From NCBI GenBank assembly GCA_947632405.1, contig CANRPE010000015.1:1-37598 (forward strand): a DNA stretch of 37,598 nucleotides, in the 5' to 3' direction. Positions within the stretch are counted from its first letter, which is position 1. The number at the start of each line of letters is the position of its first letter. The notes below the pieces were generated by a model. That model saw only the letters and a list, made by a program, of their open reading frames with translations, searched no databases and had not been told where the DNA came from. This DNA comes from an uncultured Bacilli bacterium (lineage in GTDB: Bacteria > Bacillota_I > Bacilli_A > RF39 > UBA660). Made by a program: the position numbers and the translations under genes. Positions 5,750 through 34,621 of the stretch are shown one piece after another.

Positions 5750-7168
5750 TTAATTTTGAATTAATTGTTCTATATCATTACAAAGTGGTAATAACTCTTC
5801 TATTTTATCAATTATTCTTTGTTGTTCTTCAATTGGAGGAAGTGGTATTAATAGATTTTTTAGACTTTTAGAGTTTAAGGTATCTCCTTTTATTGCACCC
5901 TTTTTATCTCCATATTTTGTAATAAATGGTAGAACTTTCATCAAATATTTTTTCAAAATTTCCGATTCAATGTAAGGAAAAATTGATATAATGCCCTCAT
6001 TATGAAACGAATCAATGTTTAAAATTGAACATCTACCAACTGTTAGTTTAAAACTCATAATCAATGTACCCTTTGGTGATATTTTGTTTTTAAAAACATC
6101 GACTGCAGCTTTTGATGAAATTTTTTCCTTTGTTTCATCAATTACCCCATCATCCACCATATCCGAAATCGATACCCAATTGTAATCATTTTCCCAATAT
6201 GTCAAATCAGCTCGTGGAGGAGTTTTACCTATATTAAAGTTTACTAAATCATCAAATTTAATCCAACACCAATTTTGAGGTATTGAAAACGGTGTATTCT
6301 CGTATTCTGTTTTAATTCTATGATTTATCTTTTTTTCAATTTTCTTTATCAAATCAGATGCACTTTCCATTTCTCTTTGAATAGATAATTTTCCAGAACA
6401 TCCACTTTGTATAATTGATTTTTTCATTTCTTTTGGAAACTCTTCTTTAATTTGTATCAGTTCTTCTTCTATAGGTTTTAATTCATCTAATTTAGCAAAT
6501 AATTCTTCTATTTTATCAACTATTCTTTGTTGTTCTTCAATTGGTGCCAATGGAATTAAAATATTTTCTATTCTTTTAATAGCTAATTTAGGTTGACCTA
6601 CTTTTGTGATCATATCTAATATTTGATTTTGAACTATCGGGGATTTTAATAAATAAAGCAACCATACCTTGTTTATATTTTTGAAGACAATCTTATTAGC
6701 ATTTTCTGTTAAATTAGCTCCATCAAGTTCTGGTGGTATATATCCAATTTTACCTATTGTCCCAGCTACTGTTATATATAAATCTTCCTCATTTATAATA
6801 TAGTTTTTTATTAAAGGATATATATCGTTAGGAACATATTTTATATTATCTAATTCGACTGTATAATCATTCATGTCAGCTACTCTTATATATTTATGCC
6901 CAGTATCAATATCTGATAATTTTCTCCCAGCTGGAATTCTCTTTCCTCCATAAATTCCAGCAATGTCGCCAAGTTGTACCCATTTCCAATTACTTGGTAC
7001 GCTAAATAAAGGCAAAAATTCTTTAGATAGATTTTTTCTCTTTATTAAGTCAAAATTTCTAATTTCATTTAAATAGGTATCAATATTAATATCCGTATCT
7101 TTACTATTAGTTAAAAGTCCTTTAAATGCATAGTCTAAAATGCTATTTTTTAATTCACCAGTTATCAT
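5750..7168 (-). CDS. hsdS: Type I restriction-modification specificity subunit
   Basis: HsdS chooses the bipartite DNA site for both methylation and restriction. The 472-residue protein has the usual two-repeat layout: a target recognition domain (about 50-210), a central conserved helix with PIEEQQRIVDKIEELFAKL, a second target recognition domain (about 285-440), and a second helix with PIEEQQRIIDKIEELL. The N-terminus (MITGELKNSILDYAFKGLL) is a half helix that completes the circular arrangement. The start overlaps the hsdM stop by 4 bp (ATGA), giving translational coupling. The two conserved helices are also similar at DNA level (near 5815 and 6525), which would allow domain exchange. Confidence 0.95.
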   Translation of the reverse strand: MITGELKNSILDYAFKGLLTNSKDTDINIDTYLNEIRNFDLIKRKNLSKEFLPLFSVPSNWKWVQLGDIAGIYGGKRIPAGRKLSDIDTGHKYIRVADMNDYTVELDNIKYVPNDIYPLIKNYIINEEDLYITVAGTIGKIGYIPPELDGANLTENANKIVFKNINKVWLLYLLKSPIVQNQILDMITKVGQPKLAIKRIENILIPLAPIEEQQRIVDKIEELFAKLDELKPIEEELIQIKEEFPKEMKKSIIQSGCSGKLSIQREMESASDLIKKIEKKINHRIKTEYENTPFSIPQNWCWIKFDDLVNFNIGKTPPRADLTYWENDYNWVSISDMVDDGVIDETKEKISSKAAVDVFKNKISPKGTLIMSFKLTVGRCSILNIDSFHNEGIISIFPYIESEILKKYLMKVLPFITKYGDKKGAIKGDTLNSKSLKNLLIPLPPIEEQQRIIDKIEELLPLCNDIEQLIQN

Positions 7169-8652
7169 TTTATATCACCTATTAAAGACATTATTTCAAC
7201 TAATTTTTCATCCAATTGCTTTTCTAAATTTTCTCTTTTTGATATAAAATTATCCATTGTTTCTTTTGGTGACAATATAATTTCCTCTTTCGTTGGATAT
7301 CCACATTGATCCAAATTATAATTTAAATCTATTATTTCATTTATGGAATACTTTTTGGATTTCCAAGTTTCTGTTAAAGATTCATCATTTTTTTCATCTT
7401 TAATTTCTACTCTTTTATTCCACCAATTAATCACATCTTCAAAATGTTTTAATTCAACAGGTTTAGTTTTGCTAAATGCTTTATACCCATTTGGTAAATC
7501 CATTCTATAAAACCAAATCTCATTAGTTGGACCTATTTTATCAAAAAATAATAAATTGGTAGCTATTGATGTATATGGTGCAAATATTGATCCAGGTAAT
7601 CTAATAATAGTGTGCAAATTACATTCTTCTAATAATTTCTTTTTTATGGCTACTTTAGTATTATCAGAACCAAATAGGAATCCATCTGGAAGAACTATTC
7701 CAACTCTACCATTTTGTTTTAATCTGTATAGTATTTCTACCATAAATAAATCTGCTGTTTCAGAATCTCTTAATTCAGTTGGAAAATTTTGTTGAACAGA
7801 CTTCTTTTCTGTGCCACCATACGGAGGATTCATTAGAATAACATCGAATTTATCAATTTCTTCATAATCTCTTACATTTTTTTCAAGTGAATTGCCTCTT
7901 ATTATTTGTGGCTCATTAATATCATGTAACAACATATTAGTAGTACATAATAAGTAAGGCAAAGATTTCTTTTCTACACCATAGAAAGATTGTTGAAGTA
8001 ATTGGTTACTAGAAGTATTACTTACACTTTCTTTCATATGATTTAAAGCAGATACTAAGAATCCACCTGTTCCACAAGCGAAATCTGCAATTGATTCTCC
8101 TACTTTTGGATCTACCATTTTTACTACGAAGTCTGTTACTGCTCTTGGAGTATAAAATTCTCCTGATTTACCCGCAGATTGTAAATCTTTTAGTATTGTT
8201 TCATATATTTCATTAAATGCATGCCTTACTTTAAAATCAGTTAAGTCTATTTCATTTAATACATTTACAACTTGGCGAATTAAAACTCCGTCTTTCATAT
8301 AGTTATTTAAATCTGTAAATACTTCTTTAACCAATCTCCCTCTCACATCTGTATTTTCATCTACCTCAAGATCTTTTAAAGTGGAAAATAATTGGATAAT
8401 AAAGTTACTCATTTCTTCACCAGTAATTGCTCTACCATCTTTATTATCTATTGCCCAATTTCTCCATCTATATTCTTCTGGTATTATTGATACATAATTA
8501 TCTTCTACTATTTCCCACTCTGATTCTTTGGCATCATATAATTTAAGAAATAGCATCCAAACAATTTGTTCAATTCGTTGTGCATCTCCGTTTACACCAG
8601 CATCTTGCCTCATTATATCTTGCAGTCTTTTAATCATTGTTCCTATATTCAT
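7165..8652 (-). CDS. hsdM: Type I restriction-modification DNA adenine methyltransferase subunit
   Basis: The 495-residue protein has an N-terminal helical HsdM domain (about 5-150), then GEFYTPRAVTDFVVKMV, the S-adenosylmethionine-binding motif DFACGTGGF (190-198) and the N6-adenine catalytic motif NPPYGG (275-280). It methylates adenine within the site picked by HsdS and protects the host. The start ATG follows GGAGGT. It sits 10 bp after hsdR and overlaps hsdS by 4 bp, so hsdR-hsdM-hsdS form one operon. All expected motifs are intact. Confidence 0.96.
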   Translation of the reverse strand: MNIGTMIKRLQDIMRQDAGVNGDAQRIEQIVWMLFLKLYDAKESEWEIVEDNYVSIIPEEYRWRNWAIDNKDGRAITGEEMSNFIIQLFSTLKDLEVDENTDVRGRLVKEVFTDLNNYMKDGVLIRQVVNVLNEIDLTDFKVRHAFNEIYETILKDLQSAGKSGEFYTPRAVTDFVVKMVDPKVGESIADFACGTGGFLVSALNHMKESVSNTSSNQLLQQSFYGVEKKSLPYLLCTTNMLLHDINEPQIIRGNSLEKNVRDYEEIDKFDVILMNPPYGGTEKKSVQQNFPTELRDSETADLFMVEILYRLKQNGRVGIVLPDGFLFGSDNTKVAIKKKLLEECNLHTIIRLPGSIFAPYTSIATNLLFFDKIGPTNEIWFYRMDLPNGYKAFSKTKPVELKHFEDVINWWNKRVEIKDEKNDESLTETWKSKKYSINEIIDLNYNLDQCGYPTKEEIILSPKETMDNFISKRENLEKQLDEKLVEIMSLIGDIK

Positions 8653-8662
8653 AACTTACCTC

Positions 8663-10981
8663 CTAGCTATATAAAGCTTTTTTAATATTAGAAATAACAT
8701 TTAAATATTTATCTTTACCACCAAATAAATTTACTATAGGAACAAGCCCTCCGAATTTATTGAAATTTTTAACTTCTAATATTCTAATATTTTCTAATTC
8801 TACAATATCTTGATTTTTGTATGTATTTAATAGTTCTTCAATAACATCTTTTTGAGAATCACTATATTCATTAATAAAATCACTATTCTTTACTTTTTCA
8901 ATTCTATCTTCTTTAGATACAACTTCTTCACCATAAGCCATATTAGATAAAATATCAAATATATCTATATTATCATTAGCTTTGTCATATAAAGCATCAA
9001 TCATAACACCTTCGTTATACAAATAATTTAAGAAGTCTTTTTTTGAATCAGCTCTATACCACTCTTGTTCAAAATCTTCATATTTTTCATAAACTCTTTT
9101 TAAATTCTTACCAGAATATTCAACAATTGATTCTGTTATTAATTTTCCATCTGCATCATAGTATTTAACTGTTTCATTTAATATTGATACAGGAACATCT
9201 TTTATATAAACTTTTCTTGATTCACCATCTAAAACTTCACCACTAAGTGGTGGTTCTACTGGATTGACTCCAACTCCAAAATCAGTACCTGTTTTTGGTT
9301 CAGATCCGTTTCCACCATCAACATCTAATACAACCTCTGCTGGACCGTTAAAGTTAGGATCAGCAAATTTTTCAGAATTATTTCTAAAATCCATTATAGT
9401 AAAGTATTCCTTACCTTTGTTTGGTAAAAGTCTTGTACCTCTACCAATAATTTGTTTAAATTCTGTCATACTTTGAATTTCTTCATCTAGTACAATTAAT
9501 TTAACTGTTTTTGTATCAACACCTGTTGATAATAATTTTGAAGTTGTTGCTATAACAGGATACACAGTATTTGAATCTATAAAATCATCTAATTTTGACT
9601 TTCCAACAACATCATTGCTAGTTATTCTAATAACATAGTTTGGATTAACTTGCATCATATCTTTATTCTCTTCTGCAAGTGCATTTCTCATCCTTAAAGC
9701 ATGTTCTGTATCAACACAGAAAACAATTGCTCTAGCCATTCGATCAGTTGATTTCATGTATTCAGTAATTCTTTTAGCAACTACTTTAGTTCTTTCATCA
9801 ATAACTATTGTTCTATCATAATCATGTAATGTATATTCTCTATCTTCTACCTCATATCCATCTTCATCAAGTTTTCCTCTTTCAGGTCTATAACCCTCTA
9901 AATCTTTATCTAAACTAACTTTTACAACTTTATAAGGAGCTAAGAATCCATCTTCAATTCCTTGCTTTAAAGAATATGTATAAATCGGTTCTCCAAAGTA
10001 AGTAATATTAGATACATCTACAGTTTCTTTTGGAGTTGCTGTCATACCTATTTGTGTTGCACCACTAAAATAAGTTAATATTTCATGCCAGTTTGAATCA
10101 TCTTTTGCACTACTTCTATGACACTCATCAACAATTATTAAATCAAAAAAATCTGGTTTAAATTGTTTATAAACTTCTTCTTCATTACTTCTCAACTGAT
10201 GATATAAAGACATATATATTTCATAAGATGAATCCATATTTCTATGTTCAACTTTTGTCATTACTTTTTGAAAAGGTTTAAAATCATTTTGCATGGTTTG
10301 ATCTATCAATACATTTCGATCTGCTAAATATAAAACTTTTCTCATTTTGCCAGATTTATATAATCTATGAATTATTTGAAAAGCTGTAAATGTTTTACCT
10401 GTTCCTGTTGCCATAACAAGTAAAATTCTCTTTTGTCCTTTTGCAATTGCTTCAATTGTTTTATTAATTGCTATTCTTTGATAATATCTAGGAGTTTTAT
10501 TTATATCCATAAAATAATATGGTTCAGTTATTAGTTGTTCCTGTTCAGGAGTTATTTGTTTTTCTTTTAAATATCTTTCCCATAAATTTTGTGGAGTTGG
10601 AAATTCTTCTAGATTTAATTCTCTTTCTTCACCAGTTATCATATCATGCTCATAAAATCCATCACCATTAGAAGAATATGCAAAAGGAATATCTAAATCA
10701 TAAGCATAATCCATTCCTTGCTGAATTCCATGAGAAACAGGGACTTTATTATCTTTTGCTTCTACAATTGCAATTGGTATATTTGCTTTATAGGATAATA
10801 AATAATCTACTTTTTTACCTTTTCCTCTCTGAGCAACATTTTCTCTAACATTTATTTTCCCTGCTGTATAATAATATTCACACCTAATTTGATTCTTTAT
10901 ATCCCAATCTGCTTCCTGCAATGCAGGTGTTATATATTTTAACTTTATATCTTCTTCTGTTAAATCCGATTTATTAATCAT
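8663..10981 (-). CDS. hsdR: Type I restriction endonuclease/translocase subunit
   Basis: HsdR cuts unmethylated DNA after ATP-driven translocation. The 772-residue protein has an N-terminal nuclease domain with Asp in KKVDYLL (D59) and EAK (E74, K76), and a superfamily 2 helicase core with Walker A ATGTGKT (191-197), DECH (285-288), GMTATP (312-317) and the motif VI region IIGRGTRLLP. A C-terminal EcoEI-type domain follows. It is shorter than the 1000-residue EcoR124 type but normal for EcoEI-like proteins. The start is ATG 10979-10981 behind TAGGAGTG, not the upstream in-frame ATG at 11005. An extended -10 promoter lies just upstream. Confidence 0.95.
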   Translation of the reverse strand: MINKSDLTEEDIKLKYITPALQEADWDIKNQIRCEYYYTAGKINVRENVAQRGKGKKVDYLLSYKANIPIAIVEAKDNKVPVSHGIQQGMDYAYDLDIPFAYSSNGDGFYEHDMITGEERELNLEEFPTPQNLWERYLKEKQITPEQEQLITEPYYFMDINKTPRYYQRIAINKTIEAIAKGQKRILLVMATGTGKTFTAFQIIHRLYKSGKMRKVLYLADRNVLIDQTMQNDFKPFQKVMTKVEHRNMDSSYEIYMSLYHQLRSNEEEVYKQFKPDFFDLIIVDECHRSSAKDDSNWHEILTYFSGATQIGMTATPKETVDVSNITYFGEPIYTYSLKQGIEDGFLAPYKVVKVSLDKDLEGYRPERGKLDEDGYEVEDREYTLHDYDRTIVIDERTKVVAKRITEYMKSTDRMARAIVFCVDTEHALRMRNALAEENKDMMQVNPNYVIRITSNDVVGKSKLDDFIDSNTVYPVIATTSKLLSTGVDTKTVKLIVLDEEIQSMTEFKQIIGRGTRLLPNKGKEYFTIMDFRNNSEKFADPNFNGPAEVVLDVDGGNGSEPKTGTDFGVGVNPVEPPLSGEVLDGESRKVYIKDVPVSILNETVKYYDADGKLITESIVEYSGKNLKRVYEKYEDFEQEWYRADSKKDFLNYLYNEGVMIDALYDKANDNIDIFDILSNMAYGEEVVSKEDRIEKVKNSDFINEYSDSQKDVIEELLNTYKNQDIVELENIRILEVKNFNKFGGLVPIVNLFGGKDKYLNVISNIKKALYS

Positions 10982-11016
10982 ACCAATCACTCCTAAACAA
11001 GACATATTTCTATAAA

Positions 11017-12880: not shown

Positions 12881-14626
12881 TCAAATAACACCATACTTTT
12901 CCCAAAAATTTGAATGAATATCCTTCAAATAATCATCTAAAAATTCTAGTGAATGATTATATATATCATCTGGTATTCCATAATAAGCAGAAGCAATACT
13001 TCCTGTAATTGCACCTATTGTATCACTATCTCCACCAATACAAATAGCGTTACGAATTGCATCTTCAAAATCATAAGATTCCAGGAAAGCAATTAAAGAG
13101 TTTTTTACCGTTTCAACACAATTAATAATTGCTTTATCTGAAGACTCACTCAATTCTTTAACACTACTATCCAATTTAAAATAATTTTCTTCAATATACT
13201 CTTTTATTTCTTCTTTGGTTTTATTATTTAACGCCATATTTATTGCAAAACATACTGCTTCAGTTCCCTTTATACTATCTTCGTTATTATGAGAAACATT
13301 AGTAATTATAGAAGATGCTGCTTTTAATTCATTTATGTTTTTTATAACTACTGGAACAGCACTTATTCTCATCGCAGAACCATTTCCAAAACTTCCATAA
13401 GGTTCATGATTATCAGTTTTTATCCATTGGTAAAAACTAGGACCAAAACCACAATTCAAATATTTTCTACCGACTTCTACCATTGAGTTAATTGAAAGAT
13501 TCTTTAAATTATCCAAAGTACCATTGTATTCCAATAAAGCTTTTGCTACTGCAAAAGTCATCACAGTATCATCAGTAAATCGACAATATTTATCGTGAAG
13601 CAATATAAAGTTTTTCTTATCTTTACAATTATTAATTTCAAATCTTGAACCAGCTATATCACCTATAGCAGTACCAAGAATTACATCTTTTTTTAAAGTA
13701 GAAAATGTTCTTTCAAAATTAATTGACAAATCAATCAAATAATCTCTTTTTTTCAAAGAATTAAGCCATTTTTCTGGTATTGAATTATATCCATATATAA
13801 TCCCAGCCATTGATCCAACAATTGCTCCTATTGTATCAGTATCATTTCCTATATTTGTAGATGCTATAATTGCTTCTTTATAGCTTTTAGAATTTAACAA
13901 TATCCATAAGGCACATTCCCAAGTATCTACCACATAACCTGTTGACTTTATATCATTAATTTTTAAATCAGAAATATCTTCCTTTATCAATCTATCATAT
14001 TTAGAAATTGATTCTTCATCATATTTACTATAATCATCTAGTTTTAAATATTCGTATGCACTTTCTTTAGACATTCCGTTTAATAAATTAATTAAAAATT
14101 TAACATACATATAACATGCAATCTTACTGATATTGTGTGAGTGTGTAAGTGATGAAACCTCATTAGATAAGCTCATAATTTTATCATTGCTAAGATGTTT
14201 TGAATAAGAATATAAAGCCACAGGTAATATTCTCATTAATGAACCATTTCCATTTGAATTAATATCTGATAAACCACATTCTGTTGGATTATCTCCATTT
14301 GTATAATTTCTACAGGCTTTTAAGCATGTTCTTCCAACATCAAAAGTCACACCATTTGGAGTATATTCACCATTATTTAACCAATCACACCATCTGGACA
14401 TTATATCAGAATAATCAAATTTTTTATTTTTAATAAGAGATTCTATAGTTGCTATTTCCATTGAAGTGTCATCTGACCATGAACCAGCAGGCTGCCCTAC
14501 TTTTTTTGATCCAATCATTTCTACTACTGGATTCTTTAATAAATGTTCACGAATACAAAATTCTGTCGGAACACCCATAGCATCACCAACTGCATGTCCT
14601 AGTATACTATCAACAAATTTCGACAT
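12881..14626 (-). CDS. Tandem ADP-ribosylglycohydrolase (two DraG-type domains), 581 aa
   Basis: Enzymes of this family remove ADP-ribose from proteins, nucleic acids or small acceptors using two metal ions. Two complete copies are fused. The first (about 1-295) has GHAVGDAMGVPTEF, SDDT (51-54) and GNDTDTIGA (260-268). The second (about 310-581) has GTAIGDIAGSRFE, TDDT (351-354) and GGDSDTIGA (531-539). The metal-binding Asp residues are present in both, so both could be active. Family members usually have one domain of about 300 residues. The start is ATG 14624-14626, about 10 bases after AGAGGTGA; an in-frame GTG further upstream has no support. It has its own extended -10 promoter and follows the macro-domain operon after a terminator. 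The substrate is unknown. Confidence 0.9.
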   Translation of the reverse strand: MSKFVDSILGHAVGDAMGVPTEFCIREHLLKNPVVEMIGSKKVGQPAGSWSDDTSMEIATIESLIKNKKFDYSDIMSRWCDWLNNGEYTPNGVTFDVGRTCLKACRNYTNGDNPTECGLSDINSNGNGSLMRILPVALYSYSKHLSNDKIMSLSNEVSSLTHSHNISKIACYMYVKFLINLLNGMSKESAYEYLKLDDYSKYDEESISKYDRLIKEDISDLKINDIKSTGYVVDTWECALWILLNSKSYKEAIIASTNIGNDTDTIGAIVGSMAGIIYGYNSIPEKWLNSLKKRDYLIDLSINFERTFSTLKKDVILGTAIGDIAGSRFEINNCKDKKNFILLHDKYCRFTDDTVMTFAVAKALLEYNGTLDNLKNLSINSMVEVGRKYLNCGFGPSFYQWIKTDNHEPYGSFGNGSAMRISAVPVVIKNINELKAASSIITNVSHNNEDSIKGTEAVCFAINMALNNKTKEEIKEYIEENYFKLDSSVKELSESSDKAIINCVETVKNSLIAFLESYDFEDAIRNAICIGGDSDTIGAITGSIASAYYGIPDDIYNHSLEFLDDYLKDIHSNFWEKYGVI

Positions 14627-14654
14627 ATAACAACATTCACCTCTTTTCATTAAT

Positions 14655-14663
14655 ATTATACCA
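14655..14663 (-). promoter_or_regulatory. Promoter of the tandem ADP-ribosylglycohydrolase gene
   Basis: Minus strand TGGTATAAT, about 30 bp upstream of the start codon. The surrounding ATGGTATAAT is identical to the hsd operon promoter core. Confidence 0.6.
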
Positions 14664-14727
14664 TGAAAAAGGCAGACCACCTATATGACTTGCTCATACA
14701 AATTTAAAAATTTTATGTTTTTTTGAA

Positions 14728-14759
14728 AAAAGTTATTACGGTTGAGAGTAATAACTTTT
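14728..14759. terminator. Bidirectional terminator after the macro-domain operon
   Basis: AAAAGTTATTAC (14728-14739) and its inverse GTAATAACTTTT (14748-14759) form a perfect 12-bp stem with an 8-base loop, followed on the minus strand by a T-rich run. It separates the macro-domain operon from the tandem hydrolase gene. Confidence 0.85.
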
Positions 14760-14804
14760 GATTTTTAAAAATTATTACGCCAAGATTACCACAAACAATC
14801 ACTG

Positions 14805-15389
14805 TTAATATTTTCTAGGAAAATATTCTTTTCCAGCAATCCACAAATATTTATCAATATCTCTTAAATTATATTCATCTATATTATAATACTTTTTAAA
14901 ATCAATCAGTATTTTTTTAAATTTTGCATAATCTTTTAAATCAGCTTGTTTAAAAGAAGCAAACTTATCTTTTGTTTTAAAATACATTAACATTCTATCT
15001 ACAAAATAATCATAAATAGGAAACTCAATATTGTTATGATGACTACAATATTTTGTAGCAAATGAATAGAAAAACTTATCTTTATCATTTATAGTTATAT
15101 GAGCTATATCATTTACTAAAGTAGGATCTCCTTCATTTAATCTTTTATCTATTTTTAATTCAAATATCTTTTTTGCAACAGGATATATTGAAAAAATATT
15201 TGTGCTATAAAAATCATTTAAACAGCTACACTTAATTAAAATTTCATTCAAATCAGTATTATATTTATAAACTTCGTGAAAAAGTTTATAAAGACTACTT
15301 TCTTGCCATACATAATGCTCTTCTAAGTTATCCCATTTATCTAAATATTCTTCCATAATTTTTTCATTTGGACTTGGTATATTTTTCAT
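14805..15389 (-). CDS. 194-aa helical protein of unknown function in the macro-domain operon
   Basis: The protein is rich in helices and aromatic residues, with a striking conserved-looking core FYSFATKYCSHHNN followed by FPIYDYFVDRML and a C-terminal LWIAGKEYFP. The [F]SxASKYC...YPIYD pattern reminds me of helix-hairpin-helix DNA glycosylase-like or similar helical proteins, but no catalytic Lys/Asp pair can be assigned, so no function is given. The start is ATG 15387-15389 behind AGGTGATG; two in-frame codons upstream overlap that site. It follows the macro-domain gene by 11 bp and ends before a strong terminator, so the two form one operon. It lacks the visible signatures of DarT-type transferases. 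Confidence 0.65.
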   Translation of the reverse strand: MKNIPSPNEKIMEEYLDKWDNLEEHYVWQESSLYKLFHEVYKYNTDLNEILIKCSCLNDFYSTNIFSIYPVAKKIFELKIDKRLNEGDPTLVNDIAHITINDKDKFFYSFATKYCSHHNNIEFPIYDYFVDRMLMYFKTKDKFASFKQADLKDYAKFKKILIDFKKYYNIDEYNLRDIDKYLWIAGKEYFPRKY

Positions 15390-15400
15390 ATTCATCACCT

Positions 15401-16141
15401 TTATAAACTTTCTATCAATATATTTAATTGTTCTTTCGTAACATTACAATTATAAACTAAATATTGTAAGCAAATTAGTTTTTGAGATAAGCACAAATCT
15501 TCAAGTTCTAAATCCTTAACAAAATCTTTATATTTATTTATAATATCAATTTCATTTAAACTATTAGATTCTAAATATTTTTTAATATCAGTAATATTTA
15601 AGTTTTCTAAATCTTTTTTTAAATCTATTTTTTTAATGTTTAAATAACATTTTAAATAAATATCTTTACATACTGGATTTATATTATTTAAATAAATTTC
15701 TACTTCGTTATCATTACAAAATTTATATAATAAATCTATTAGTGGCTTAGCAACTTCTTCATGTTTATATCCATGAACTCCTGTTCCTAAACTACATAAT
15801 AATATTTTCTTGTATTTCTTCTCTTTAATTTTTTCTAATAAATTCTTATAACAAATTATTAAAGAATTGATAGGATCTTTTTCTTCAAAATACTTTGGAG
15901 CTAAGATATGTATAATATCCATATTTAAATGAAATCCCGAAGTAATACGAACTTCGCCATTGACCATATTATCTTTAAAATTTTGTTTACAATATTCTAA
16001 TAATTCAGGACCACTTGCTCTATATATTGCACCACAAATACCACTACCATTTATCATATACTTATTTGAAGCATTTACAATAGCATCCATATCATTTGAA
16101 TTTAAAATATAATCTCCACAAATCAAATACAATTTTCCCAT
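15401..16141 (-). CDS. Macro-domain protein (ADP-ribose binding/hydrolysis), 246 aa
   Basis: The N-terminal macro domain (about 1-165) shows DAIVNASN (19-26), GSGICGAIYRASG (32-44) and the phosphate-binding loop SLGTGVHGY (117-125). Macro domains bind ADP-ribose, and many remove it from proteins, DNA or O-acetyl-ADP-ribose. The C-terminal 80 residues are helical and unlike known domains. The start is ATG 16139-16141 after GGTGAT. It is the first gene of an operon with the 194-aa helical protein, behind its own extended -10 promoter. In DarTG systems a macro domain is the antitoxin, but no DarT-like gene is seen here. Confidence 0.9.
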   Translation of the reverse strand: MGKLYLICGDYILNSNDMDAIVNASNKYMINGSGICGAIYRASGPELLEYCKQNFKDNMVNGEVRITSGFHLNMDIIHILAPKYFEEKDPINSLIICYKNLLEKIKEKKYKKILLCSLGTGVHGYKHEEVAKPLIDLLYKFCNDNEVEIYLNNINPVCKDIYLKCYLNIKKIDLKKDLENLNITDIKKYLESNSLNEIDIINKYKDFVKDLELEDLCLSQKLICLQYLVYNCNVTKEQLNILIESL

Positions 16142-16175
16142 TATTATCACCACTAAATTATAGATATTACTATTT

Positions 16176-22859: not shown

Positions 22860-23105
22860 TCCTTTTTTAAATCACCAAAATGTGATAGACAATCCCAAAT
22901 TTTTATAAATATTTTAACAAATATTTAAAGAGCATAAGAGATTGATGTCACAACACATATTTTTACTAGATTTTATCTAGATTATGTGTGACATCAAACT
23001 TATTTTGCACTTGCAAAATTATCCCCTTTTTGGGGATTGTCTATTTATAATTTACTTATTTTATAATACTTTCTATTGGTATCAATTGGGGATTGTCTTA
23101 TCTTT
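22860..23105. other. Likely oriT / mobilisation control region
   Basis: The 280-bp gap between the M23 gene and the RHH gene is packed with structure. GATGTCACA...TATGTGTGACATC (22944-22995) is an imperfect inverted repeat enclosing a perfect hairpin CTAGA-TTTTA-TCTAG (22966-22980). ATCCCC-TTTTT-GGGGAT (23021-23037) is a second hairpin. A 13-bp element TTGGGGATTGTCT occurs at 23030-23042 and 23086-23098, with an inverted near-copy at 22887-22898 close to the RHH start. Location beside a relaxase operon, inverted repeats and iterons are typical of oriT; the nick site cannot be assigned by eye. Confidence 0.7.
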
Positions 23106-23134
23106 AATTTATTATTTTAAAAATATTTAGGGGA

Positions 23135-28949: not shown

Positions 28950-29228
28950 CTAGAATAAATCAATAATTAAATTTACAATTGAAATTGCTAATATAATTCC
29001 TACAATTCCAAACATAGTTTGTATAATTCTTTGTTTTACTTGTGCTTTTCTATCTACATCTACAACAGCATATAAAATAAATCCAACAATTAATGATACT
29101 CCAGCAGCTGCAATTCCAACTCTTAATGCCCAAGTTGAAAATGTTTGAATTGCTTTAATAATTGAATCAACATTATAACCTCCACCTTGTAAATGTTCTA
29201 TTTTTAAAAATTGTAAATACTTACTCAT
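28950..29228 (-). CDS. VirB2-like small pilin/channel protein
   Basis: The 92-residue protein has two hydrophobic helices (about 34-55, VGIAAAGVSLIVGFILYAVV; and 70-90, MFGIVGIILAISIVNLIIDL) separated by a short basic loop (DVDRKAQVKQR). This is the topology of VirB2/TrbC and of small proteins at this position in Bacillota T4SS operons. It begins the secretion-gene block, directly after the structured intergenic RNA, with a GGAGG site. Confidence 0.78.
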   Translation of the reverse strand: MSKYLQFLKIEHLQGGGYNVDSIIKAIQTFSTWALRVGIAAAGVSLIVGFILYAVVDVDRKAQVKQRIIQTMFGIVGIILAISIVNLIIDLF

Positions 29229-29275
29229 AAATATTCCTCCTATACTATTACTAACATTTCATTAAATATAAAAAG

Positions 29276-29351
29276 AAAAAGCAAAGATGTGATATAATTT
29301 CACTAGAGTTATTTTGCATGTCGGCGATTTAACTCTTTTTCTTTGCTTTTT
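29276..29351 (-). ncRNA. Structured intergenic RNA with three stems (possible attenuator or antiterminator)
   Basis: On the minus strand an outer stem AAAAAGCAAAG / CTTTGCTTTTT (29341-29351 with 29276-29286) encloses two hairpins: AGAGTTA/TAACTCT (29330-29336 with 29305-29311) with a GC-rich loop containing CGCCGACATGC, and GTGA/TCAC (29300-29303 with 29289-29292). The outer stem is followed by a U-rich run. It lies between ssb and the secretion genes. It could end transcription, act as a switch or yield a stable small RNA. It matches no riboswitch I recognise. Confidence 0.6.
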
Positions 29352-29358
29352 TCATAGA

Positions 29359-29733
29359 CTACATATCTAAATCTTCATCAGATGATTTATCAATGTCATT
29401 ATCTTTTTCTTTTTTTGAAGATAAGAAAGTTATTTTTTCAGCAACTACTTGAGTTGACTTTCTTTTTTCTCCAGATTCAGTTTCATAGGTACTTGTTTGG
29501 ATTCTTCCTTTAACTCCAAGAAGATCACCTTTTTGACAGTATTCTGCTGTATTTTCAGCAACACCACCCCAAAGAATGCAATCAACAAAATCTGTATCAT
29601 ACTCTCCATCAGCGTTCTTATAACTTCTTGGTACTGCTAAGGTAATTTGTGATCTACTATTTCCATCATTTTCTAATTTTTCTACTTTTGGTTTATCTAC
29701 TAGTCTTCCGACAATAACAATTTGATTCAACAT
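29359..29733 (-). CDS. ssb: Single-stranded DNA-binding protein
   Basis: The 124-residue protein has the OB-fold start MLNQIVIVGRLVDKPKVEK, then SQITLAVPRSYKN, TDFVDCILWGGVAENTAEYC and KGDLLGVKGRIQTSTYE. The tail is acidic (DNDIDKSSDEDLDM) but does not end in the usual hydrophobic tip. Conjugative elements carry their own SSB to coat DNA in the recipient. The start ATG follows GGAGGA. Confidence 0.95.
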   Translation of the reverse strand: MLNQIVIVGRLVDKPKVEKLENDGNSRSQITLAVPRSYKNADGEYDTDFVDCILWGGVAENTAEYCQKGDLLGVKGRIQTSTYETESGEKRKSTQVVAEKITFLSSKKEKDNDIDKSSDEDLDM

Positions 29734-31204: not shown

Positions 31205-31254
31205 ATTATATTATATAAAAATATATCAAAGAGAAAAAATGTGCGAAATTACAT
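31205..31254 (-). promoter_or_regulatory. Replication/transfer operon promoter with shared operator
   Basis: The sequence AAAATGTGCGAAATTACAT (31236-31254) recurs identically at 37220-37238. In both places the -10 (here TATAAT, 31210-31215) begins 24 bases after the minus-strand CACA of the motif, and a TTTG sits at the same place between. The -35 region is poor. The motif therefore occupies an activator-type position. The site overlaps the sortase stop codon. Confidence 0.75.
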
Positions 31255-31866
31255 CAATTTAAATATAATAACTATTTGATTATTAGTACCATGTCTACAA
31301 GTAATAAGTGTAAGTGTTGTTGTATTTTTTTCTTTTATTATTTCTGCTTTACCAGTTTTATTAATGTCATAAATATCTACTACTTTATAATTGTATGTAA
31401 TTCCTTTATATATGATAGTTGCTTCATCACCTATTGTAAGTTTATCTAATTTCTTAAAATAAGACATTCTTGCATTACCAGAATGACCAGCAATTATTAC
31501 ATTACCATTTACTTCATCTGGCATAGATGACCCATCTACCCATTCAATATTATAATTAACATTATTTAAATAACTATTTGGATCTACTAAACCTCTCTCT
31601 AAATTAATTTTAGGAATTTTAAGTACTGCAATATAATTAACTTTTACTTGCTCTTTTACTTCTTCTTTTTCTTCTAGAGGTTCTTCAATAGGTACAATAG
31701 TTTCTTCTTCTACATTATCATAAAATTCTTCTAATAATTCTTCATCTGCTTGATTAAGTCTTTTGGTATAAAAATAATCATATGATATTAATCCTATACC
31801 AATAAGAAAGATAAAAGAGCCGATTAATATAAACCAGCTCTTATTTTTTTCTTTTTTTGCTTCCAT
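31249..31866 (-). CDS. Sortase (surface-protein transpeptidase)
   Basis: The sortase anchors the neighbouring adhesin to peptidoglycan. An N-terminal membrane helix (about 11-28) and an acidic linker (40-75) precede the catalytic domain, with His in IIAGHSG (H128) and Cys in TLTLITC (C190). The normal Arg a few residues after the Cys is not obvious: the sequence reads CRHGTNNQIVI, with Gln at the usual place and Arg next to Cys. The start overlaps the adhesin gene by 26 bp. It is probably specific for the VPNTD-type signal of that adhesin. Confidence 0.9.
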   Translation of the reverse strand: MEAKKEKNKSWFILIGSFIFLIGIGLISYDYFYTKRLNQADEELLEEFYDNVEEETIVPIEEPLEEKEEVKEQVKVNYIAVLKIPKINLERGLVDPNSYLNNVNYNIEWVDGSSMPDEVNGNVIIAGHSGNARMSYFKKLDKLTIGDEATIIYKGITYNYKVVDIYDINKTGKAEIIKEKNTTTLTLITCRHGTNNQIVIIFKLM

Positions 31867-34621
31867 AAATAATTACACCTACACCTGCTATCATTAATGT
31901 TATTCCACTAAAAATTAATTCTTTATAATCTGTTGCATCTGTATTTGGTACTTCAACAATCTTTTTATCCTTCATTACTGATTTAATTATTTCTCCATCT
32001 TTTGTTATTTCAAAAAACATTTTTTCAGGATTAATTTCGTATCCCTCTGGAGCTTCTTTCTCAATAATATAATATTTACCATATTTTAATTTTTCTATAG
32101 TAATCATTCCATTTTCATCAGTTCTTCCAGAAAATACTAATTCATTAGTTTCAGCATCATAAATTTCAATTAATGTATTTGGAAGAGGATTATCATTTGA
32201 AAAATCTAATTTAGTGAATTCTAATGTTCCAGTAATATCTTCATCTTTCATTGTTGACTTAACTATTTCTCCATTCTCCTTTATTTCAAATGGCATTTTT
32301 TCTTCATTAAGTTTATATCCTTCTGGTGCTTCTTTCTCAATAATGTAATATTTACCAATTGGAAGTCTTTCTATTGTTATTTTACCTTCTTCATTTGTTC
32401 TTCCAGAAAATACTAGTTGACCATCTTCTGTATAAATTTCAATTAATGTATTTGGAAGAGCTTTAGATTCAGATATATCTGTTTTAGTAAATTCTAATTT
32501 ACCAGTTTTTAAAATATTAAGTATTGCTTTAGAATAAAAAATAGTTGGTGTATATTGATCTTTATATACAAGTTCTACTTCATATTGATTTTCATCTAAA
32601 ACATAATTATCTAAAGTTTCAATTTCTTTGACATAATATTTTCCTAAATATAATTCATCAAAAACAACTTTACCTTCTTTGTCAGTAGTTTTAGTAGCAA
32701 CTAGAGAATCTTTTTGATAGATTACTTTTCCATTCCAAACAATATCTTCTTTAGCATATAATCCAAATTTTACTCCCTCTAAAGGTTTGTTTTTAAATTC
32801 AATACCTTCTTCTGTTATTTCAACTACTTCACCAGTTTTTTCTATTTGAATTTCACCTTTTACTCTTTGGTTTTCAAACTTAGTATCAAAAATAATTCCA
32901 TATTCAGAATCAGTTCTTAAATTTGAATTTTCATCAATAGTGAATTCGTGAGATTGGGTATTCCATAAATATCCATCTATAACTTGATCTACTTCTTCAA
33001 GTCTATAAGTTCCAGTCATTAATGGATATGCAGTAGTAAATTCACCATTCTCATCTGTTTCCCATTCGCAAATAGTAGTTTTATTTGGATATGTAATTGT
33101 TTGACACACATATTTATTATTTTTTACATCAAAAATTTTAAACTTTATATGACTCCTTTTAATTACTTCTCCTGTTTCAGAATCAATTTTGACTACTCTT
33201 AATTTAGCTTTTATTGGAGCATTTGAAATTACCTTTTTAACAACAGCTCCAACATTTTTTACTTCAATAGTAAAATCTGCAACTTTCTCATGACCTTTTG
33301 TTGTTGTTAATTGTTTTACTGTATATGTACCATAAGGTAAAGTGAATCTGAAAACACCTTGTGAATCAGTTATTACTTCTTTTACAAGTTCTCCTTTATT
33401 ATTATATACACCAAATTTTACTCCAACTTCTGGTGTCATTATTTTTGTTTCATCACTTGCATATACTTTAGTAAATTCAAAATCTAATTTAATTACTTGT
33501 TCAAAAACTTGTACAGTAGGATTTAGATTATCTTCTGTTATTTCAAAATAATATTTTGTACTATCTAATAAATATCCTTCTGAAGCTTTTTCTTCAAGTA
33601 AATAAAATCTTCCTAATTCTGGAAGATAATCAGATGTATTTGTTCCATCTGCTTTAGTTGTAACAGAACCCATTCTTGTTCCATCTTCTTTATAGATACC
33701 ATAAACAGCACCACCTAAAGTTGCTTCTCCTTGTGGTTTATTAGTTCTTGTTTCCATATCTTTTTTATTTGGTGTTACCCTACCACCTATTATTTTTAAA
33801 GTAAATTTACTATGAACTGGATCATAATTTCCAACTCTAAAAACATTTTGTGAATGATCACTAAAGTAAACAATTGGTGGTATTTCATATTTTGTTGCTT
33901 TCTTTTCAAATGTTATACTAGCTTCTCCTACTTTAGTAGCAGTTACTGATAATGTATTACCATTTATTTTAGCAGTAACATTATTTGTTCCAGTTATTTT
34001 ATATTCACTTAAAACATTATTATAATCAGTTAAATCTTTTGTACTTCCAATAGGTAAAACTACTCCACTTTCAAATTGTGGTGTTTTATAATGATTAGAT
34101 ACTAATCTTTCTAATTCAGCAATTTCAGAATTAAATTTTGAAGTTTCAGAACCATTTAATGTATCAGTAAAATAGATATTAGATTCAGGATTGGTTGTTC
34201 TCCAAATCATTACTTGTGTAACAGCATACCATTTGTTATCACTATGATCTATTCCATTATCATTATATTGATATCCATAATAAGCAAGTAAAGAAATTCT
34301 TTCCCATTGTTCTTCTGTAAAACCTAATACTTTTTCATAGTCTTCTCTAATAACATCATAATAAGGTAAAATATTATTAATATCAGCATATGGTTGAAGA
34401 CAATAAACAAATTTATTATCTTCACTTCTTCTTAAAAATTGAGCTTGTTGATATTTTTTAGAACCATCTGGTTTTACTTTTTGAATATAAATATTATCGA
34501 TATGTTCACTTGGCCAAATAGCTTGACCTGTGTACTTTTCAGCATGAACAACATTTGAATTAAATATTGTCATTAAAAAAAGTATGCTCATCATAGCATA
34601 CTTAAAAAGTTTCTTTTTCAT
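31841..34621 (-). CDS. Thioester-domain/CnaB surface adhesin with sorting signal, 926 aa
   Basis: A secreted cell-wall protein. The signal peptide (1-27) ends at VVHA. An N-terminal thioester domain is suggested by Cys in FVYCLQPY (C74) and Gln in AVTQVMIW (Q136), which together form a reactive bond that can covalently capture host or partner surfaces. About six CnaB/SpaA-like domains follow, with xFTK starts and EKEAPEGY ends that form isopeptide bonds; the last two are close repeats. The C-terminus has VPNTD (891-895), a hydrophobic helix and KKRKK, an LPxTG-variant signal. The sortase gene overlaps it. It may promote mating-pair contact or colonisation. A terminator-like hairpin lies in its first codons. 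Confidence 0.93.
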   Translation of the reverse strand: MKKKLFKYAMMSILFLMTIFNSNVVHAEKYTGQAIWPSEHIDNIYIQKVKPDGSKKYQQAQFLRRSEDNKFVYCLQPYADINNILPYYDVIREDYEKVLGFTEEQWERISLLAYYGYQYNDNGIDHSDNKWYAVTQVMIWRTTNPESNIYFTDTLNGSETSKFNSEIAELERLVSNHYKTPQFESGVVLPIGSTKDLTDYNNVLSEYKITGTNNVTAKINGNTLSVTATKVGEASITFEKKATKYEIPPIVYFSDHSQNVFRVGNYDPVHSKFTLKIIGGRVTPNKKDMETRTNKPQGEATLGGAVYGIYKEDGTRMGSVTTKADGTNTSDYLPELGRFYLLEEKASEGYLLDSTKYYFEITEDNLNPTVQVFEQVIKLDFEFTKVYASDETKIMTPEVGVKFGVYNNKGELVKEVITDSQGVFRFTLPYGTYTVKQLTTTKGHEKVADFTIEVKNVGAVVKKVISNAPIKAKLRVVKIDSETGEVIKRSHIKFKIFDVKNNKYVCQTITYPNKTTICEWETDENGEFTTAYPLMTGTYRLEEVDQVIDGYLWNTQSHEFTIDENSNLRTDSEYGIIFDTKFENQRVKGEIQIEKTGEVVEITEEGIEFKNKPLEGVKFGLYAKEDIVWNGKVIYQKDSLVATKTTDKEGKVVFDELYLGKYYVKEIETLDNYVLDENQYEVELVYKDQYTPTIFYSKAILNILKTGKLEFTKTDISESKALPNTLIEIYTEDGQLVFSGRTNEEGKITIERLPIGKYYIIEKEAPEGYKLNEEKMPFEIKENGEIVKSTMKDEDITGTLEFTKLDFSNDNPLPNTLIEIYDAETNELVFSGRTDENGMITIEKLKYGKYYIIEKEAPEGYEINPEKMFFEITKDGEIIKSVMKDKKIVEVPNTDATDYKELIFSGITLMIAGVGVIIYGSKKRKK
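34574..34603 (-). promoter_or_regulatory. Terminator-like hairpin inside the adhesin signal-peptide codons
   Basis: Minus strand AAGTATGCT, loop ATGATG, AGCATACTT followed by a run of U (34574-34580). It is a perfect 9-bp intrinsic terminator placed at codons 7-15 of the adhesin gene. A translating ribosome would prevent it from folding, so it may act as an attenuator. Confidence 0.7.

Follow-up and report, generated by a model that had tools for sequence, protein, structure and literature searches.

What is a strongly structured stretch of 76 bp doing between a gene for a single-strand binding protein (ssb) and the first T4SS gene of an uncultured Bacilli bacterium? The window examined here (37,598 nucleotides) is contig 15 of a source genome of 1.35 Mb in 54 contigs and has a GC content of 25.6%. 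On its minus strand the gene order is ssb, the structured element, a T4SS pilin-like gene, genes for a 470-aa and a 103-aa protein for which no Pfam match was found, a gene for a TraG-like ATPase (PF19044) and an M23 peptidase gene. A relaxase-like protein of the window scores 25 bits against MobL, below the cut-off of 28.5, and the surrounding genes are read as a conjugative element.

Several other features of the window were recorded alongside. The gap at 22865-23110, separating the M23 peptidase gene from the relaxase side, is a candidate oriT with large inverted repeats (TTGATGTCACA...TGTGACATCAA) and a repeated GGGGATTGTC. Upstream of ssb, a sortase gene (PF04203) lies beside a large, repeat-rich surface-protein-like gene (31249-34621). 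Positions 12881-16153 hold genes that we take to resemble ADP-ribosylglycohydrolase repeats and a macrodomain protein, and a type I restriction-like set (5750-11005) neighbours them.

Two interleaved signals in one fold

The three stems reported in the first-pass annotation are present as described, with 12 perfect pairs forming an outer stem that encloses two hairpins (hp1 and hp2; Table 1). For the 76 nt, the predicted folding energies are -26.3 (plus strand) and -20.5 kcal/mol (minus strand), with z values of -6.1 and -5.1, and on either strand none of 200 shuffles folds as well; with flanks included (29260-29370) the z values are -5.1 and -3.5, respectively. The structure with its three stems is real and well beyond what chance would give. 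The G+C-rich loop noted earlier in this A+T-rich region, CGCCGACATGC, likewise stands, occurring a single time in the window (29316-29326, minus strand).

On the evidence of sequence and fold, the outer stem and the U tract behind it constitute a predicted intrinsic terminator for the ssb mRNA, placed before the pilin gene and covarying among relatives. A simple terminator scan called no terminator at the element, as expected of a scan limited to short loops, and the whole-window terminator scan was too permissive for use. The earlier proposal of a termination or antitermination element is supported by the sequence, and its suggestion that the outer stem terminates in either direction stands in part: signals for both directions are present, but they belong to two stems, the outer stem with its U tract on the minus strand and hp1 with its T5 tract on the plus strand. 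In the window hp1 is predicted at -10.4 kcal/mol as plus-strand RNA versus -4.7 kcal/mol as minus-strand RNA. The first-pass annotation had missed the extended -10 box on the plus strand, the leader ATG after ssb and the variability of the loop. Together, the -10 box and hp1 outline a putative antisense RNA gene lying within the minus-strand terminator, its start near 29305 placed by the general rule of 7 nt past the -10 box; a conserved -35 hexamer for this -10 box was not found.

Table 1. Features of the element and its flanking genes (window coordinates, except for the last row, which refers to locus L054)
Feature	Position	Strand	Basis
ssb, single-strand binding protein	29359-29733	-	PF00436, E 1.6e-26
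T4SS pilin-like gene, first after the element	28950-29228	-	PF18895, 26.7 bits vs cut-off 26.6
Outer stem of ssb mRNA (arms 29340-29351 / 29276-29287; inverted repeat I10)	29276-29351	-	Fold, covariation
U tract ending the minus-strand terminator, overlapping the outer arm	29270-29281	-	Sequence; T tract there in relatives too
hp2, palindrome around the -10 box (GTGA/TCAC in the window)	29289-29303	.	Pairing in relatives
hp1, predicted terminator hairpin of the plus-strand RNA	29306-29335	+	Stem GAGTTA/TAACTC, inner stem TTGC/GCGA, G+C-rich tip
Extended -10 box TGTGATATAAT of the putative antisense RNA gene	29288-29298	+	TGnTAnAAT conserved; consensus match
T5 tract ending the predicted plus-strand RNA	29336-29340	+	Sequence; T4 to T7 in relatives
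Predicted antisense RNA, ~36 nt, within the minus-strand terminator	29305-29340	+	Promoter and terminator signals
Leader open frame, M K K A K K K S stop	29329-29355	-	ATG, script on relatives
csp-antisense stretch, L054	1267-1396

Conservation and distribution among relatives

Relatives of the pilin protein were found at 42 places in 36 of the 386 genomes of the family, and 37 of these places were used, one at a contig end and four distant ones being left out. With 58 further loci taken from named collections the set came to 95 loci, or 77 nonredundant loci once identical upstream regions had been removed; 43 of the 77 carry the short element, 4 a longer version and 30 neither. The related loci are named as uncultured Bacilli, Bacillales, Tenericutes or Erysipelotrichaceae, many of them from the rumen or gut. 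A model of the plus-strand core (R1) matches 56 of the 95 loci, 55 of them with E <1e-4; matches to the loci from which R1 was built hold by construction, and the remaining match (L101) is a partial copy. Across the 386 family genomes R1 finds 20 places in 19 genomes, 19 at the ssb-pilin spot and the twentieth (E 0.0012) in a coding gene, while six of the 395 genomes of the class have a match, four of these being family members already seen and two being weak (E 0.008-0.009) and unrelated. The weak R1 matches elsewhere (L152, L154 and L155), situated within coding genes or in an unrelated gap, were put down to chance. Because the R1 matches fall almost entirely at the ssb-pilin spot, the element is specific to this operon and, within the genomes searched, to the bacterial family. 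A dispersed repeat was rejected, as the element's own genome holds just one real copy. No DNA match of the element was found in phages or plasmids and no pilin match in plasmids; the viral contigs gave one pilin relative (L133), which lacks the element, and a search of them with the 470-aa protein found nothing.

The stems are maintained by compensating changes. Among 27 hand-set versions of the outer stem, three of which (L051, L097 and L121) come from loci that lack the RNA gene, Watson-Crick pairs make up 281 of 286; three wobbles are possible on the minus strand only and none on the plus strand only, and the stem of L090 holds a wobble state intermediate between the L050 pair and the common pair. 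In 17 hand-set versions of hp2, 90 of 100 pairs are Watson-Crick, the rest being 4 minus-strand wobbles, 2 plus-strand wobbles and 4 other mismatches. Double changes occur at 7 of 11 positions of the hand-set outer stems, at 3 of 4 machine-aligned hp2 pairs and at 6 of 14 core pairs in the machine-aligned A5, a number that none of 500 shuffles reaches; the copies are related, so these counts are not phylogenetically independent events, and several arms were set by hand. The element core is 63-86% identical on average, compared with 49-60% at the 4-fold degenerate sites of the pilin gene, and core identity is the higher in 161 of 171 copy pairs grouped by pilin identity. A comparison across related elements at the same place was the check that the first-pass annotation had proposed, and with both covariation and conservation found the stems survive it.

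The plus-strand signals are conserved as well. Of the 46 intact nonredundant copies (42 of the short and 4 of the long version, not counting the truncated L101), 44 retain TGnTAnAAT; in the remaining two, L058 and L124, TATAAT lacks the TG. The columns of the -10 box are invariant or nearly so in alignments A4 and A5, and the box is constant although its flanks differ among lineages; Gram-positive promoters favour extended -10 boxes. A repressor operator was considered and is not favoured, since the palindrome around the -10 box differs in sequence among lineages. hp1 is followed by T4 to T7 in relatives and is the more stable as plus-strand RNA in all 21 distinct versions. Twenty of these have plus-strand G.U pairs and one has them on the minus strand, a bias opposite to that of the outer stem. 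Measured from the -10 box through the T tract, short versions span 40-45 nt and long ones 76-84 nt; with hp1 beginning ~7 nt past the box, the 40-45 nt span would give a short RNA of roughly 34-39 nt. One relative (L067) has the -10 box and hp1 and no outer stem, from which it appears that the RNA gene can stand alone. The small RNA suggested by the earlier annotation is thereby supported by sequence signals and is located on the plus strand, antisense to the operon. Variants of the arrangement were also observed: a small helix-turn-helix-like gene separates the element from the pilin gene in L040-L045, L069 and L104, and L097 is a decayed copy in which hp1 is deleted, the -10 box now reads TATAAA and the outer stem is kept.

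The 17 distinct tips of the hp1 loop differ even among close relatives, yet remain G+C-rich, with 54 of 97 bases (56%) being G or C versus 25.6% in the window. Variable but G+C-rich tips are expected for loop-loop recognition, and we infer that they speak more for an antisense RNA that contacts its target than for a ligand pocket. This bears directly on the suggestion that a ligand- or protein-responsive switch reads the loop. The stable, conserved three-way junction with a terminator would suit a riboswitch or protein-binding switch of this kind, but the tips vary freely, neither a curated covariance model match (Rfam) nor a conserved unpaired core (loop tips) was found for the element, and Rfam gives 0 matches at gathering score and only chance-level matches below it. 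The suggestion is therefore not upheld, and we regard such a switch as scarcely credible.

A candidate attenuator with a nested antisense RNA gene

The best explanation for these observations, held tentatively and at a little under an even chance, is a T4SS-gene attenuator in which an antisense RNA gene is nested, on the other strand, in the loop of the terminator. RNA polymerase would transcribe the ~36-nt hairpin RNA from the plus strand, and the G+C-rich tip of this RNA would meet the complementary hp1 tip in the nascent ssb-T4SS mRNA, a contact that would alter the frequency of outer-stem formation. If pairing extends fully over hp1 and the A-run, it may keep the arms of the outer stem apart and favour read-through, although this direction is a guess and the reverse sign is possible. 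A ribosome that reaches the end of ssb and starts again at the leader ATG would cover the 5' arm, with read-through favoured in this case as well. Two inputs would then tune T4SS expression, namely the number of copies of the element (through RNA dose) and ssb translation. Where the pilin gene comes directly after the element in short-type loci, just 21-41 nt separate the end of the extracted element from the pilin gene, which appears to leave little room for another promoter.

Several points count against the antisense-attenuator reading. The -35 is absent, as noted above, and the promoter is a match to a consensus. No alternative antiterminator stem was found by eye; a candidate in which the loop AGCAAA pairs with the outer 3' arm fits L055 but fails in L050, L057, L113 and L119. 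In addition, blocking hp1 and the A-run does not abolish the predicted outer stem, which retains -3.3 to -8.4 kcal/mol in 7 of 8 elements (the eighth, L067, has no outer stem and gives 0); the calculation is only indicative, as it cannot place hp2 beside a large loop and ignores duplex rigidity.

One alternative is a plain intra-operon terminator that is bypassed by processive antitermination of the conAn or canT kind, with a tiny functionless RNA and with the plus-strand promoter and hairpin merely insulating or colliding with transcription. The conAn system of pLS20 bypasses many internal terminators of Gram-positive conjugation operons (PMC8955417) and canT of Tn916 does so in its conjugation operon (PMC11658703), so that conjugation operons with many bypassed internal terminators are a precedent for this alternative. 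The element resembles these systems, as they are described there, in placing within a conjugation operon a terminator whose bypass would control transfer genes, but conAn and canT act from the operon start on many terminators, whereas the element is local and has a putative antisense promoter (PMC8955417, PMC11658703). Also in favour of a plain terminator are the simple hairpins without an RNA gene that occupy the same place in L051, L070, L106, L107 and L121-L123. It leaves unexplained, however, why the extended -10 box is conserved and hp1 favours the plus strand, why the tips are G+C-rich and variable and why the long version has the csp antisense insert described below, and we judge it somewhat unlikely.

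A further point against the antisense-attenuator reading comes from the relatives without the element (30 of the 77 nonredundant loci). An automatic scan found a terminator before the pilin gene in 15 of these 30, a count that includes some false or doubtful terminators and misses others that lie before an inserted gene (L051, L070), and at some element-free loci there is no clear terminator before the pilin gene either. As the element and sometimes a clear terminator are missing in relatives, the T4SS can evidently do without the element. In L051 a small helix-turn-helix-like gene separates the plain hairpin from the pilin gene. In the distant L064 and L072, which have no ssb here, a strong terminator precedes the pilin gene in the last 170 bases, and a stretch farther upstream complements the 5' half of this terminator, resembling a terminator/antiterminator pair.

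A second alternative places the whole control in the leader. The leader ATG begins 4 nt past the ssb stop codon, and its frame crosses the 5' arm of the outer stem. A scripted search for an ATG no more than 24 nt from the ssb stop gave one, usually at a distance of 2-7 nt, in 26 of 28 distinct short-type copies. For L116, counted among the 26, the ATG is located inside the stem; L105, counted as one of the two misses, owes this to a misplaced ssb stop; and the script did not find ssb in L119, L108 and L106. Among loci without the element the count is 1 of 8, there the pilin start itself. The 22 distinct linkers from ATG to stem, leaving out L058 and L116 (ATG in ssb), contain 0 in-frame and 14 out-of-frame stops. 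Were this a leader-peptide attenuator only, a ribosome reinitiating after ssb would decide terminator formation and the plus-strand signals would be incidental. The ATG and its open frame are what such an attenuator needs, but the peptides vary in sequence, frame and length, L058 and L116 carry the element without a leader ATG, and the frame is less conserved than the plus-strand signals, leaving the leader-only account quite improbable. Since the leader peptides, while basic, are not conserved, it is the position of the ribosome and not the peptide that would matter.

A third alternative treats the element as folded DNA. As a single-strand origin or ssDNA promoter, the outer stem and hp2 of a single-stranded minus strand would rebuild a double-stranded promoter, the primer made by RNA polymerase would stop at hp1 and DNA polymerase would then copy the strand. 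There is precedent in sso1 of ICEBs1, which has three stem-loops and is orientation-specific (PMC4595007), and in Frpo, a folded ssDNA promoter often found before ssb (PMC11541004). The element shares with them a folded multi-stem DNA with promoter features in a conjugative element, and with Frpo the proximity to ssb; its three stems, its promoter, a short predicted RNA adjoining ssb and the position of hp2 and the outer stem exactly over the promoter all agree with such a role. Against it, a folded strand of the sso or Frpo type would present a -35 and a -10, and here the -10 is conserved and a conserved -35 is absent. An Frpo drives a leading-region gene. The promoter here faces away from any gene and would run antisense into ssb, whereas SSB genes of leading regions are reported to be on the T-strand throughout (PMC11541004). 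Plasmids and phages give no DNA match, as stated above. The alternative loses further weight because L067 loses the fold and keeps promoter and hairpin, and because the promoter faces against ssb; we consider it improbable.

With these alternatives weighed, the element is a real, conserved and unusually compact regulatory element, and most likely serves as an attenuator in which an antisense RNA gene is nested, one that would work like RNAIII of pIP501 and be built differently. Antisense attenuation is established in the Gram-positive pIP501 (RNAIII/repR; PMC4981023). Points of likeness would be a Gram-positive element, an antisense gene (putative here) opposite the controlled mRNA leader and a conditional terminator (predicted here); in pIP501, loop contacts matter. 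The differences are that RNAIII has 136 nt and controls repR, whereas the element precedes transfer genes, and that the putative antisense gene of the element lies inside the terminator loop itself, with no antiterminator stem found (PMC4981023).

A parallel from transfer control is FinP/traJ of F-like plasmids. There an antisense hairpin RNA whose loops vary between alleles controls transfer genes, with FinP acting on traJ translation together with FinO. The element likewise would place an antisense hairpin RNA, here a predicted one, at transfer genes, but it contains a transcription terminator and occurs in other bacteria. A literature search, covering titles and the starts of abstracts of mostly open-access papers, found no antisense RNA or attenuator between ssb and T4SS genes.

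The long version and csp-antisense stretches

Four nonredundant relatives (L054, L108, L110 and L117; L111 and L112 share the upstream region of L054) have the long version, in which an insert lies between the unchanged promoter and the end hairpin. The insert is antisense to the start of the cold-shock gene csp, the minus strand of L054 reading M K S K V K W F N N, and in L108, L110 and L117 too the csp-antisense stretch lies upstream of the pilin gene. The element of the window has no csp insert, and no PF00313 match was found in the source genome. A mini-csp peptide in place of an anti-csp RNA is not favoured, as L108 and L161 have no start codon.

A pattern made from the csp insert, with 1 mismatch allowed, matches in 141 of the 386 family genomes. 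Inspection of 95 of the places gave 77 csp genes themselves, as expected, 14 cases of other sequence and 4 free-standing csp-antisense stretches (L160, L161, L187 and L213) with promoter- and terminator-like signals read by eye. L187 adjoins genes for a MobL relaxase and an M23 peptidase, L161 sits among MobL, coupling-protein and integrase genes, and L213 adjoins a cation-ATPase gene, with no conjugative element visible there. Predicted duplexes with the csp start regions of the same genomes reach -33 to -62 kcal/mol, these being raw energies for 7 duplexes of 6 RNAs, the csp of the L117 genome and one of the two csp genes of the L108 genome having escaped the script.

Cold-shock proteins are reported to be able to act as transcription antiterminators. 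It is conceivable, though unlikely, that in this family the conjugative elements are built on a 'gene inside a terminator' chassis, in some cases with a csp-antisense insert through which an incoming element would be able to shut down an RNA chaperone of its host, a reading that also takes in the separate anti-csp RNA genes in other conjugative elements (L187, L161). The csp-antisense stretches themselves are candidate mobile-element RNAs against host cold-shock genes, to judge by complementarity. Among titles and the beginnings of abstracts, mostly open-access, no anti-csp RNAs of conjugative elements were found.

Should the preferred reading of an attenuator with a nested antisense RNA gene be true, the element would be a very small conjugation switch, a single 76-bp stretch serving both strands, with an antisense promoter, its RNA and its terminator all packed within the terminator of the other strand. 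If the csp reading is true, the long version would point the way to RNAs with which mobile elements target an RNA chaperone of the host. The -10 box, the loop tip and the leader ATG would, if the attenuator is real, provide a handle on when the elements of uncultured Bacilli build their transfer machine.
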